Shown in pieces: positions 3,763 to 10,999 of a stretch of 64,000 nt of DNA. The first letter of the stretch is position 1, and each line of letters begins with the position of its first letter. The stretch spans positions 434,001 to 498,000 of the forward strand of contig NZ_JALNMI010000003.1 of the NCBI RefSeq assembly GCF_023156585.1, written 5' to 3'. Source of the DNA: Subsaxibacter sp. CAU 1640. Its GTDB lineage: Bacteria > Bacteroidota > Bacteroidia > Flavobacteriales > Flavobacteriaceae. The notes under the pieces were generated by a model that was not told where the DNA came from, searched no databases, and worked only from the letters and a program-made list of their open reading frames with translations. Made by a program: the position numbers and the translations under genes.

Positions 3763-4336
3763 AACGTAGGTATTAAGTTGTCTTCGACAACGCCACTGCA
3801 TCTATTGCAGCCAACTGCCGAAGTAGTTTAGGGCACGATGCTTTTGTTTTTGGTCTTCACAGATTATAAAACATCGGCATCGCCATCTTTGAAACCCTGC
3901 CCTCTTTACAAGGGCTTGTGATAGAGCTCATTGACGGCTGCAATTTGTGTAAAAAAACAATACGTTCATCGATGCCATTTTCGGCATTGAAAATTCAATA
4001 ATTATAAAATCTTACAAAATTGTAGGAGAAGTGGCGTGGCTGTTACGGAATTTCCTACATTGACAAATGTTAAAATTTGTGAGTTTCGATGAAATACATT
4101 AAAAATTTAACATTTATGATAAAAATAATTAAGCTCAATCATTCAAATACCACACATTGGTTACATATCCTATTTAAAAATTGCGATTCTTCATCTTTTT
4201 TTCCTTTCATTCCATTTAATTTTTACATTTAGGGCATAATTTCAACATGCAACTTAAATTGAAGCTGCGTTGCTAACTTGGGTATCGCCACTACTTAAGC
4301 CAAGACAAGCCTAGAAATAACTTGCTGAATAAATCC
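3763..4336. other. Intergenic region with several short inverted repeats, no gene seen
   Basis: I found no convincing gene in this stretch. It holds a series of small inverted repeats: GTTGTC/GACAAC with a 3-nt loop (3777-3791), GCCCT/AGGGC (3899-3915), ATGCC/GGCAT near 3972-3987, TGTAGGA (4021-4027) with TCCTACA (4053-4059), and ACAAAT/ATTTGT (4063-4080). None has a following T-run, so they are not typical terminators. An open frame of about 38 codons starts near 4116 but has no recognisable features. The left part is GC-richer, like the gene at 2836-3762; the right part is AT-rich and includes the probable promoter of the methyltransferase (TACATTTA-like element just upstream). Confidence 0.5.
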
Positions 4337-7924: not shown

Positions 7925-8959
7925 ATGAAAGTATTACTGGTTGTGTCAGTACTTACTATAGTAGGTGCATGTGCTCACAAACGCCATAGTGAGAAGTTAG
8001 CCGACTTAAAAGACGGCATTCGGTTTGAGCAAGAAAACCACATTTCTGAATTTGCAAGCACCATAAAAGCCAGTGATCTAAAATCTATTGTCTATGAACT
8101 TTCTTCCAATGACAATGAAGGTCGAAAAACAGGTACTTACGGTCATAATAGGGCTTCCAAATTTATAAAGGATTATTACATCAAAAAGCAAATCGCTTCT
8201 CCATTGGGAGGTGAGAATTATTATCAAAGCATTCCTAAATCTTTTCTGTCTAAAGACTTCAATAGTTCGCAAAATGTGATAGCCTATATTAAAGGTTCCG
8301 AGTTTCCCGAAGAAGTCTTAATCATATCTGCACATTCAGACCATCTCGGTATGGAAAACAATATTGTCAATCCAGGAGCTGATGATAATGCTTCCGGCAC
8401 TGCAGCAATTATGGAAATTGCCGAGGCATTCAAGACAGCACAATTGAATGGATTTACACCAAAACGAAGCATCGTTTTTTTACATCTAACTGGTGAAGAA
8501 GAAGGACTTTATGGCTCTCGATACTATATTGAGCATCCTGTTTTTTCATTGAACAATACTGTTGCCAATCTTAACATTGATATGATAGGACGTATTGATG
8601 ACAGACACAAAGACAATCCTAATTATATATATCTCATTGGGTCTGATCGTATCAGCACTGAACTCCATTATATATCGGAAGAGGCAAATGCTGAATTCAC
8701 CCAGCTCGACCTCGATTACAGGTACAATGCCGAGAATGACCCTAATAGATACTATTACAGATCCGATCATTATAATTTTGCACAAATGGGTATCCCTGTC
8801 ATTTTTTACTTCAATGGCGAACACGAAGATTATCACCAGCCCAGCGACACAGCCGACAAACTGAATTATGACCTGCTCGAAAAGCGCACCAAGCTCATAT
8901 TCGCTACGGCATGGTATGTTGCCAACAACACTCAAAGGCTGGTGCCAGAAACATTATAA
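7925..8959 (+). CDS. M28 family zinc metallopeptidase, lipoprotein
   Basis: The product has 344 residues with a lipobox (VGAC, Cys16), so it should be an exported lipoprotein. The M28 (aminopeptidase/glutamate carboxypeptidase fold) zinc ligands are all visible: H137 (SAHSDH), bridging D153 (GADDN), E192 beside catalytic E191 (TGEEEG), D219 (NIDMIGR) and H304 (DYHQPSD). It would cleave N-terminal residues from peptides at two zinc ions. Unlike the next gene it has no protease-associated (PA) insert, which explains the shorter length. It lies 83 nt upstream of a longer paralogue that keeps the same motifs in the same order, so the pair arose by duplication. Confidence 0.9.
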   Translation: MKVLLVVSVLTIVGACAHKRHSEKLADLKDGIRFEQENHISEFASTIKASDLKSIVYELSSNDNEGRKTGTYGHNRASKFIKDYYIKKQIASPLGGENYYQSIPKSFLSKDFNSSQNVIAYIKGSEFPEEVLIISAHSDHLGMENNIVNPGADDNASGTAAIMEIAEAFKTAQLNGFTPKRSIVFLHLTGEEEGLYGSRYYIEHPVFSLNNTVANLNIDMIGRIDDRHKDNPNYIYLIGSDRISTELHYISEEANAEFTQLDLDYRYNAENDPNRYYYRSDHYNFAQMGIPVIFYFNGEHEDYHQPSDTADKLNYDLLEKRTKLIFATAWYVANNTQRLVPETL

Positions 8960-9042: not shown

Positions 9043-10629
9043 ATGAAAAAATCTCTCCTATTGGTTAGCATCGCTTTTATCGTATTGAGTTGCGGCAGCC
9101 AGCAAAAAAATGGCAATGCAGATGCAACTGCTACAAAAAAGGAAGCCGACCCGACAGCTTATGGCACCACTATCACTTCAGCCGAACTCCAAGAAATGCT
9201 CTACACTTATGCTTCTGATGAGTTTGAGGGACGTAATACTGGCGATAAAGGACAAAAAATTGCAGTAGAGTATCTAAAAGATAAGTACGTTGCTATGGGT
9301 ATCTCTTCTGCATTACCAAATGGTAATTATTTTCAAAATGTACCATTGGAGAAACAGAAATCTCCGGATGTGAAACTCACATTAAATGGAAAATCCTTTG
9401 AGAAGAATGAGGATTTCGTGGTGTATGGCTCTTCAAGTTCCCAAAGTTTTTCAGCAAATGAAATAGTCTATGTTGGTTACGGAATAGACAGTGATACTTA
9501 TTCAGATTATAACAATTTAGACGTTAAGGGTAAAATTGTAATAGCACGTGAGGGAGAACCTAAAAATAAGGCTGGAGTCTATACTGTTTCTGGCACTACG
9601 GAAGGCTCAAAATGGTCTAATGGCAGACAAGGGCTTTCTTCCAAAAGAGATGCTGCAAAAGAACGCGGCGCCAAAGCATTGTTCTTAATGGATTCTGAAA
9701 TGTTTGATAGATACCTACCTTATTATAAAGCTCAAGACGATTCAGGAACGGCTGGGAGAATTTCATTGAAAAACACAGAACAGGAAATGATAACATTTTT
9801 GATCAGTGCCGAATTGGGCTCTGAATTTATAAAAGACATCAATGAAAATACGACTCCTCGAGTGGTTGCCAATAAAGTTTCTGCAGAAGTAACAAGTAAC
9901 TCTGAAGAATTGTATTCGGAAAATGTAGCAGCCTTTATTAAAGGTTCAGAAAAACCAAATGAAATTATCGTCATTTCGGCCCATTTAGATCATGAAGGCA
10001 TCAAAGGTGGAGAAATCTATAATGGTGCAGATGATGATGGCTCTGGCACAGTGGCAATATTGGAAATAGCCCAGGCGTTCAAAAAAGCTGTTGATGATGG
10101 CTACAAACCAAAAAGATCGATCTTATTTTTACATGTTACTGGAGAAGAAAAAGGTCTATTGGGTTCTCGCTACTACACAGATTTTGATCCTATTTTTCCT
10201 TTGGAAAACACTGTAGCCGACTTGAATATTGATATGATAGGCAGAGTTGATGCGAAACACAATGAAAACAGAAATTATGTATATCTAATTGGTTCAGATA
10301 AGTTGAGTTCAGAACTGCATAAGTTGTCAGAAGAGGTTAACAATAAATATTCAAAAATGACCTTGGATTATACTTATAATGATGAAAATGATCCAAATCG
10401 CTATTATTATCGCTCTGACCATTACAACTTTGCAAAAAACAATATTCCGGTGATTTTCTATTTTAATGGAACACATGATGATTATCACAAACCTACAGAT
10501 ACACCAGATAAAATTCAATATGATTTATTAGAGTCAAGAACTCGCCTGGTATTTTATACCGCTTGGGAATTGGCAAACAGACCAAATAGAATAGTGGTTG
10601 ATAAAGCAACCGAAAAGTCTGCTAATTAA
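9043..10629 (+). CDS. M28 family zinc metallopeptidase with PA domain, lipoprotein
   Basis: The product has 528 residues with lipobox LSC at Cys17. A protease-associated domain of about 130 residues (roughly 130-260: VYVGYGIDSD, KGKIVIAREGEP, AKERGAKALFLMD) sits between the N-terminal helix region and the catalytic part. The zinc site is intact: H314, D330, E369 beside catalytic E368, D397 and H482. It is a secreted or surface aminopeptidase, probably feeding peptide uptake. The catalytic half closely follows the preceding gene (for example RYYYRSDHYNFA in both). A strong terminator follows. Confidence 0.92.
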   Translation: MKKSLLLVSIAFIVLSCGSQQKNGNADATATKKEADPTAYGTTITSAELQEMLYTYASDEFEGRNTGDKGQKIAVEYLKDKYVAMGISSALPNGNYFQNVPLEKQKSPDVKLTLNGKSFEKNEDFVVYGSSSSQSFSANEIVYVGYGIDSDTYSDYNNLDVKGKIVIAREGEPKNKAGVYTVSGTTEGSKWSNGRQGLSSKRDAAKERGAKALFLMDSEMFDRYLPYYKAQDDSGTAGRISLKNTEQEMITFLISAELGSEFIKDINENTTPRVVANKVSAEVTSNSEELYSENVAAFIKGSEKPNEIIVISAHLDHEGIKGGEIYNGADDDGSGTVAILEIAQAFKKAVDDGYKPKRSILFLHVTGEEKGLLGSRYYTDFDPIFPLENTVADLNIDMIGRVDAKHNENRNYVYLIGSDKLSSELHKLSEEVNNKYSKMTLDYTYNDENDPNRYYYRSDHYNFAKNNIPVIFYFNGTHDDYHKPTDTPDKIQYDLLESRTRLVFYTAWELANRPNRIVVDKATEKSAN

Positions 10630-10654
10630 TTCTCATATTTAATCAAAAGTTACG

Positions 10655-10678
10655 AGCCTTTCAATTATAAGAAAGGCT
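10655..10678 (+). terminator. Terminator after the M28 genes
   Basis: AGCCTTTC (10655-10662) pairs with GAAAGGCT (10671-10678), followed by a T-run. It separates the peptidase genes from the riboswitch behind it. Confidence 0.85.
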
Positions 10679-10741
10679 TTTTTATTTGTTAAAACATTCT
10701 AAAAGATATTTTTTGCATTCCTCTTTTTTGTATCTTTATGA

Positions 10742-10818
10742 TGTATTGGGGTGCTGATCATTGTGGCTGAGATTATACCCATTGTACTGCCTCTGATAAT
10801 GCAGAGCATAGGAATACA
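10742..10818 (+). ncRNA. TPP riboswitch (THI element), orphan
   Basis: The conserved thiamine-pyrophosphate aptamer core is present in order. P1 is formed by TGTATT (10742-10747) and AATACA (10813-10818). GGGGTGC follows, then GGCTGAGATTATACCC with the pyrimidine-sensing CTGAGA, then P5 CTCTG (10791-10795) with CAGAG (10802-10806) around the invariant ATAATG loop, and GCATAGGAA at the end. The element is 77 nt, normal for the class. A TATCTTTA promoter-like box lies at 10731-10738. A terminator-like hairpin follows at 10824-10862, as in an expression platform. No thiamine gene or any other plus-strand gene follows: the next gene is tRNA-His on the opposite strand. Confidence 0.88.
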
Positions 10819-10823
10819 ACAAG

Positions 10824-10862
10824 CAAAGGGAACGAGCAATTTAATAATTGTTGTTCCCTTTG
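10824..10862 (+). terminator. Hairpin downstream of the TPP riboswitch (expression platform)
   Basis: CAAAGGGAAC (10824-10833) pairs with GTTCCCTTTG (10853-10862); the stem continues through GCAAT with ATTGT around a TTAATA loop. The T-run after it is weak (TTATTTT). It lies 5 nt after the aptamer, where a TPP-controlled terminator is expected. Confidence 0.7.
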
Positions 10863-10889
10863 TTATTTTCTGAAAACGCTTGGAATAAA

Positions 10890-10917
10890 AAAAGCCCTCA
10901 CTCTCGTGAAGGCTTTT
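10890..10917. terminator. Bidirectional terminator between riboswitch and tRNA-His
   Basis: AAAAGCC (10890-10896) pairs with GGCTTTT (10911-10917), with an inner TCAC/GTGA stem around TCTC. The A-run on the left serves the minus-strand tRNA-His transcript. Confidence 0.75.
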
Positions 10918-10924
10918 GAAACTG

Positions 10925-10999
10925 GGTGGAAGATGGGGCTCGAACCCACGACCCTCGGTACCACAAACCGATGCTCTAACCAACTGAGCTACAACCACC
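10925..10999 (-). tRNA. tRNA-His (anticodon GTG)
   Basis: Read on the minus strand the gene starts GGTGGTTGTAGCTCAG, where the first G can serve as the extra G-1 of tRNA-His, opposite C73. The anticodon loop is TTTGTGG with GTG, and the T-arm is GTGGGTTCGAGCCCCAT. The 3' acceptor strand reads CTTCCACC, so positions 5-68 and 6-67 are T-T oppositions while the other pairs hold. Translated, this gene gives the well-known spurious peptide VVVAQLVRASVCG. Confidence 0.92.

Follow-up and report, generated by a model that had tools for sequence, protein, structure and literature searches.

Introduction

Riboswitches are defined by the gene under their control, and the known trans-acting riboswitch transcripts (SreA, Rli55 and EutX) are single cases from Gram-positive bacteria. 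In Listeria, SreA and SreB are SAM riboswitch transcripts that act in trans on prfA (PMC8383071). Rli55 and EutX are small RNAs controlled by B12 riboswitches, and they sequester EutV, the regulator of eut genes (PMC8383071). In C. difficile, an orphan riboswitch in the interval between CD2517 and CD2517.1 has been listed without known function (PMC11477304). Furthermore, Flavobacterium psychrophilum possesses stand-alone small RNAs, of which Rfp18 has been reported to act on protease mRNAs (PMC9723704).

Here we describe a thiamine pyrophosphate (TPP)-class aptamer with a hairpin behind it in Subsaxibacter sp. CAU 1640. The window is the whole stretch of DNA that was analysed (64,000 nt). The aptamer-hairpin unit shares its fold, the CUGAGA pyrimidine pocket and the UAAU of L5 with the THI element (RF00059), and several of its orthologues pass the curated threshold of that family. 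It differs from RF00059 in that it is free-standing without a controlled gene, that the CG contacting the pyrophosphate is replaced in 49 of 51 copies, and that a hairpin of conserved sequence lies directly behind P1. In SreA and SreB, a riboswitch and a terminator together give a small RNA able to act in trans, and the free-standing unit would resemble them in this. However, the SreA riboswitch additionally regulates the gene behind it through antitermination, whereas the free-standing unit has neither gene nor antiterminator and belongs to another ligand class. The resemblance to Rli55 and EutX is that a vitamin riboswitch is linked to a non-coding RNA rather than to an mRNA; in contrast to them, the unit has one hairpin after the aptamer and no such eut locus nearby. 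The C. difficile orphan is a single locus of another class, whereas the free-standing unit forms a family over about 24 genera. Rfp18, which we liken to the unit by its description, is a stand-alone structured small RNA from the same bacterial family; the accessible part of its report does not describe it as a riboswitch. In the literature searched, which was largely open-access, no stand-alone TPP-class RNA in Bacteroidota was found.

Results

Structure of the locus

The features of the locus are given in Table 1. Because the terminator of the M28 peptidase gene lies upstream and that of the convergent tRNA-His gene lies downstream, the element would constitute its own transcription unit. The M28 peptidase gene is the second of a tandem pair of paralogues, the first of which occupies positions 7925-8959.

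Table 1. Coordinates of the free-standing RNA and its neighbours in the window
Feature	Position	Strand	Evidence
M28 peptidase, upstream neighbour	9043-10629	+	PF04389, E 5.7e-40
Terminator of M28 peptidase gene; parts its transcript from the RNA gene	10654-10679	+	Terminator scan
-7 promoter box TATCTTTA, Bacteroidota type, TAnnTTTG-like	10731-10738	+	TAnnTT[T/A] in 50/51 homologues
Whole free-standing RNA as modelled (aptamer, hairpin and tail)	10741-10871	+	Model R2, 117.9 bits, E 5.4e-23
TPP-class aptamer, P1 to P1'	10742-10818	+	RF00059, 42.2 bits; covariation
Aptamer P1	10742-10746 / 10814-10818	+	
CUGAGA: J3-2 T-loop, thiamine pyrimidine pocket	10767-10772	+	Homologue alignment
P5/L5, loop AUAAUG	10791-10806	+	
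CA in place of canonical TPP-riboswitch CG (C77-G78, pyrophosphate/metal contacts)	10807-10808	+	
Terminator-type hairpin, conserved stem GCAAAGGGAAC...GUUCCCUUUGU	10822-10864	+	Fold z -6.7; stem kept across 24 genera
Terminator of convergent tRNA-His gene	10890-10917	-	Terminator scan
tRNA-His (GTG), convergent neighbour	10924-10998	-	

The 3' side of the aptamer reads AUAGGAAUAC, and in P5 the sister species show a compensatory change from U-A to G-C. By folding, the hairpin is 43 nt long with -23.4 kcal/mol. The first-pass annotation had placed a terminator-type hairpin 5 nt behind the aptamer: the hairpin stands, but the gap between P1 and the hairpin is 3 nt. In the window the hairpin ends in a poor U tail (UUAUUUUCU), and a simple terminator scan misses it. 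The loop of P3 is often palindromic in this RNA (UGAUCA at 10755-10760 of the window, CUUAAG in many Aequorivita), and kissing dimers could form.

The earlier statement that no open frame with a start lies between the riboswitch and tRNA-His on the opposite strand was borne out, as no plausible reading frame was found between the hairpin and tRNA-His in the window. One frame of 40 aa (10751-10873) overlaps the RNA and is attributed to chance. A small open reading frame within the aptamer-hairpin unit was also rejected: because hairpin lengths vary, the frame is not conserved across homologues.

Assignment to the TPP class and conservation

A cmscan search of the window placed RF00059 at 10737-10830 on the plus strand, covering the full model (1-105), with an E-value of 4.9e-7 (local stretch) or 9.0e-7 (genome). 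The score (Table 1) is below the curated gathering score of 54.3 bits, and thus the window copy is unlisted in a default Rfam search. In contrast, orthologues from sister genera pass this cut-off with 54.6-65.0 bits (L014, 65.0; L021, 62.6; L009, 58.9; L011, 58.6), and they support the TPP class of the window aptamer. In the covariance-model check proposed in the first-pass annotation, the window copy lies below the cut-off and several orthologues lie above it. The complete TPP aptamer described there (P1, CTGAGA, the ATAATG loop with P5, and GCATAGG) is confirmed.

The aptamer-hairpin unit is also found 3' of the M28 gene in two congeneric species, one of which has tRNA-His behind the unit as well. 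Among the three congeneric species, the flanks of the unit are poorly conserved, and three pairs already carry compensatory changes. A covariance model built from these three sequences (R1) retrieved full-length matches, with both aptamer and hairpin, from many Flavobacteriaceae genera. In an alignment of 51 distinct sequences of the unit (A5), the P1-P5 architecture is present and 24 of 36 pairs, in both aptamer and hairpin, are changed on both sides; there are 167 such cells, as compared with 49.6 in shuffles. When the pairing was slid along the same alignment as a control, the paired fraction dropped from 91% to 40-54%. The unit is about 125-140 nt long.

A further model, R2, found 37 full-length copies in 35 Flavobacteriaceae genomes from 24 genera, at 66.9-135 bits. 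The scores leave a gap in the same genomes: free-standing copies have at least 66.9 bits and ordinary TPP riboswitches at most 55.7 bits. Matches of a pattern scan to named genomes (Aequorivita, Gelidibacter, Altibacter, Luteirhabdus, Thermobacterium and Pukyongia) all match the covariance model. Four pattern matches from outside the phylum (Armatimonadetes, Holophagales, Aminicenantes and Paludibacteraceae) fail the model and were discarded as chance. Outside Flavobacteriaceae, no R2 score exceeded 64 bits in samples of 296 genomes from the order and 296 from the phylum, which include family members; the top match from outside the family is an ordinary riboswitch preceding a TonB receptor. 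A plasmid- or phage-borne element was rejected, as collections of plasmids and phages gave no match. Two genomes (G211 and G268) have two copies of the free-standing RNA each. On one contig (L045) the copies, at 937-1066 and 3892-4020, are only 3 kb apart.

At the level of sequence, these comparisons demonstrate that an aptamer-hairpin RNA family exists. They also bear on the idea that the element resembles a TPP riboswitch by chance or is what remains of one after this lineage lost the gene behind it. The window score below the Rfam threshold and the lack of a gene behind the element would fit this idea. However, the unit is conserved with compensatory changes over 24 genera, and promoter and terminator are conserved alongside. 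Loss of the gene in this lineage was rejected on the conservation in relatives and chance on the covariation, and we regard this explanation as highly improbable. These data contradict the earlier suggestion of a lost or moved target gene: in about 24 genera the unit occurs without a thiamine gene, with strong covariation and with its own promoter and terminator travelling along. Rather than being left over from a lost gene, the element probably works as a small RNA that senses a vitamin.

Neighbouring genes of free-standing and ordinary aptamers

The comparison with relatives that had been suggested for finding an ancestral downstream gene was carried out; it gave no consistent downstream gene, and no thiamine gene was seen behind any of the 51 loci. 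When genes of at least 100 codons were counted by mechanical gene calling, over loci that are phylogenetically non-independent, the next gene of the free-standing class was convergent at 36/50 loci (often within 50 nt) and co-directional at 14/50, at a distance of 75-681 nt. In contrast, the ordinary TPP riboswitches that these genomes carry were followed by a co-directional gene in 28/28 readable cases. The frequency of a convergent next gene thus differs between the classes (36/50 versus 0/28; Fisher p 5e-11, for phylogenetically non-independent loci). Most genes behind ordinary riboswitches encode a TonB receptor, at 48-204 nt; the others are ThiC or another gene. Searching 33 carriers with RF00059 gave one or two TPP elements in most of them. 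Those co-directional neighbours of the free-standing RNA that were sampled are mutually unrelated (beta-eliminating lyase, NAPRTase, SpoU methylase, fatty-acid hydroxylase and unknowns), and the convergent ones include peptide chain release factor, RecG, PRA-CH/PRA-PH and alcohol dehydrogenase.

The hairpin and its possible role in cis

A -7 box precedes the unit by 10-16 nt in 50 of the 51 homologues, and the transcript should therefore have P1 at its extreme 5' end. The terminator stem (CAAAGGGAAC/GUUCCCUUUG) is strongly conserved, with compensated variants (GGAAAC/GUUUCC, GAGAAU), and its upper part and loop are variable. Most homologues have a U tract (UUUUUU) 3' of the stem. One homologue (L158, G268:C27) has a degraded aptamer core (GGGGUGGCUAUCUAGUCUGAGA, short P4) and retains promoter and hairpin, a pattern which suggests a separate function for the hairpin.

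In transcription-attenuating TPP riboswitches, too, the aptamer directly abuts a terminator. The unit might act in cis, by ligand-dependent read-through past the hairpin into the neighbour, either as an mRNA leader or as antisense to a convergent gene; at 14/50 loci a co-directional gene lies farther down. However, the neighbours vary between genera, and downstream of the hairpin the window has a second terminator, which is convergent, and tRNA-His. Moreover, when the nascent RNA was folded up to the 5' arm of the terminator, for the alignment and for single sequences, no conserved antiterminator was found (5/51, as compared with 12.5% for shuffled arms). Because no competing antiterminator is conserved, ligand-controlled termination is unlikely. 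As an antiterminator, CCCRUUG of the aptamer could pair with the terminator's CAAAGGG in the window, but this pairing is not conserved (Aequorivita has CCCGUAA) and is absent from the nascent folds; this candidate was rejected. Overall, we consider action in cis to be unlikely.

Recognition of the ligand

The pyrimidine pocket (residues 39-43) reads CTGAGA in 48 and CTGAAA in 3 of the 51 sequences, so that CUGARA is present in all 51 homologues. L5 has UAAU in 50/51, and P2/P3 are found in nearly all homologues. In canonical TPP riboswitches, C77-G78 interact with a metal ion and G78 directly contacts the pyrophosphate (PMC3764141). At this site (J5-4), CG occurs in only 2 of the 51 free-standing copies, and J4-5 is shortened in the class. 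Because these pyrophosphate contacts are not conserved, the TPP specificity of the free-standing RNA is uncertain.

This result brings in a further explanation: ligand sensing may have been lost or altered, and the fold may serve an ordinary structured small RNA as its scaffold, or the RNA may sense another aminopyrimidine compound. Members with a degraded aptamer and an intact hairpin, such as L158, point in the same direction as the altered pyrophosphate site. However, the conservation of CUGAGA, UAAU and P2/P3 is hard to explain without pyrimidine recognition, and TPP riboswitches of TonB receptors in the same genomes have a similarly altered pyrophosphate site. We judge this explanation as doubtful as action in cis.

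In the same genomes, CG is kept in 7/7 riboswitches of the ThiC type and other non-TonB types and in 0/22 of the TonB type, which have UU or CC. The TonB-receptor leaders (L001 1501-1592, minus strand, and 21 more: L097-L115, L081, L082 and L005) have a nearly continuous P4-P5, unlike the ThiC type. These leader riboswitches may sense thiamine or TMP. Judging from the altered pyrophosphate site, both the import-linked and the free-standing aptamers may respond to thiamine or its monophosphate, besides or instead of TPP. An ACCYCUUUU-like stretch (AAUGACCUCUUUUUAUUCG) recurs near the start of the TonB receptor and is complementary to AAAAGGGGU of the aptamer (L001, L081, L100, L102, L107, L114 and L161); it looks like the expression platform of the TonB riboswitch.

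Possible partners of the RNA

The perfect 12-nt complement of the conserved stem plus AA (AACAAAGGGAAC) is confined to the RNA gene itself in many genomes, and extra sites exist in some; no shared 12-nt target was found. Thus, the terminator stem as a 12-nt antisense seed was rejected. Because the conserved parts of the RNA are almost all paired, there is no obvious seed. Pairing with TonB-receptor leaders gave -43.3 kcal/mol for own pairs, -42.5 for swapped pairs and -43.6 for shuffled sequences, and thus no advantage for own pairs, in a weak test that allowed long gappy duplexes. No Hfq gene was found in the 35 carrier genomes.

The first-pass annotation had alternatively proposed a short TPP-controlled transcript that acts in trans or as a TPP sponge. 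The anatomy fits this proposal; the specificity for TPP is in doubt, and the searches gave neither a shared 12-mer nor a TonB-leader target. The sponge half of the proposal can be stated as a buffer or store: an abundant RNA would mainly hold thiamine compounds, or a protein recognising the RNA, instead of pairing with mRNAs. The missing seed and shared target agree with this, and so does the aptamer as the conserved domain. In addition, ThiC is present in 3/34 carriers as compared with 79/363 other Flavobacteriaceae (p 0.08, a trend only), that is, absent from 31/34 and 284/363; most carriers would hence depend on uptake. However, only a very abundant RNA would make the stoichiometry favourable, and a ligand sponge leaves the sequence conservation of the terminator stem unexplained. 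We see a buffer or store as a minor contender, slightly ahead of the two preceding explanations.

Discussion

We propose, with a probability of roughly 55%, that the element is an independent RNA gene, namely a free-standing, trans-acting small RNA responsive to a thiamine compound and belonging to a family in Flavobacteriaceae. In this proposal, its own promoter would produce a transcript of about 125-140 nt with a 5'-terminal TPP-class aptamer followed by an intrinsic terminator. The RNA would bind thiamine or a phosphate of thiamine, and binding would alter its fold, stability or availability. By acting in trans, on mRNAs or a protein, it would then couple some process to thiamine status. 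Tentatively, and with less assurance than for the proposal itself, we suggest a vertically conserved class of vitamin-gated free-standing RNAs with altered phosphate recognition, which may report the thiamine supply in trans, or buffer it, in Hfq-less and mostly vitamin-importing bacteria.

Surveys of riboswitches anchored to genes and the Rfam threshold are both prone to overlook such RNAs. A gene-less TPP-class aptamer that has been kept over many genera together with promoter and terminator implies a second use of metabolite aptamers. It would be a family-wide case in Bacteroidota, in carriers among which the search found no Hfq.
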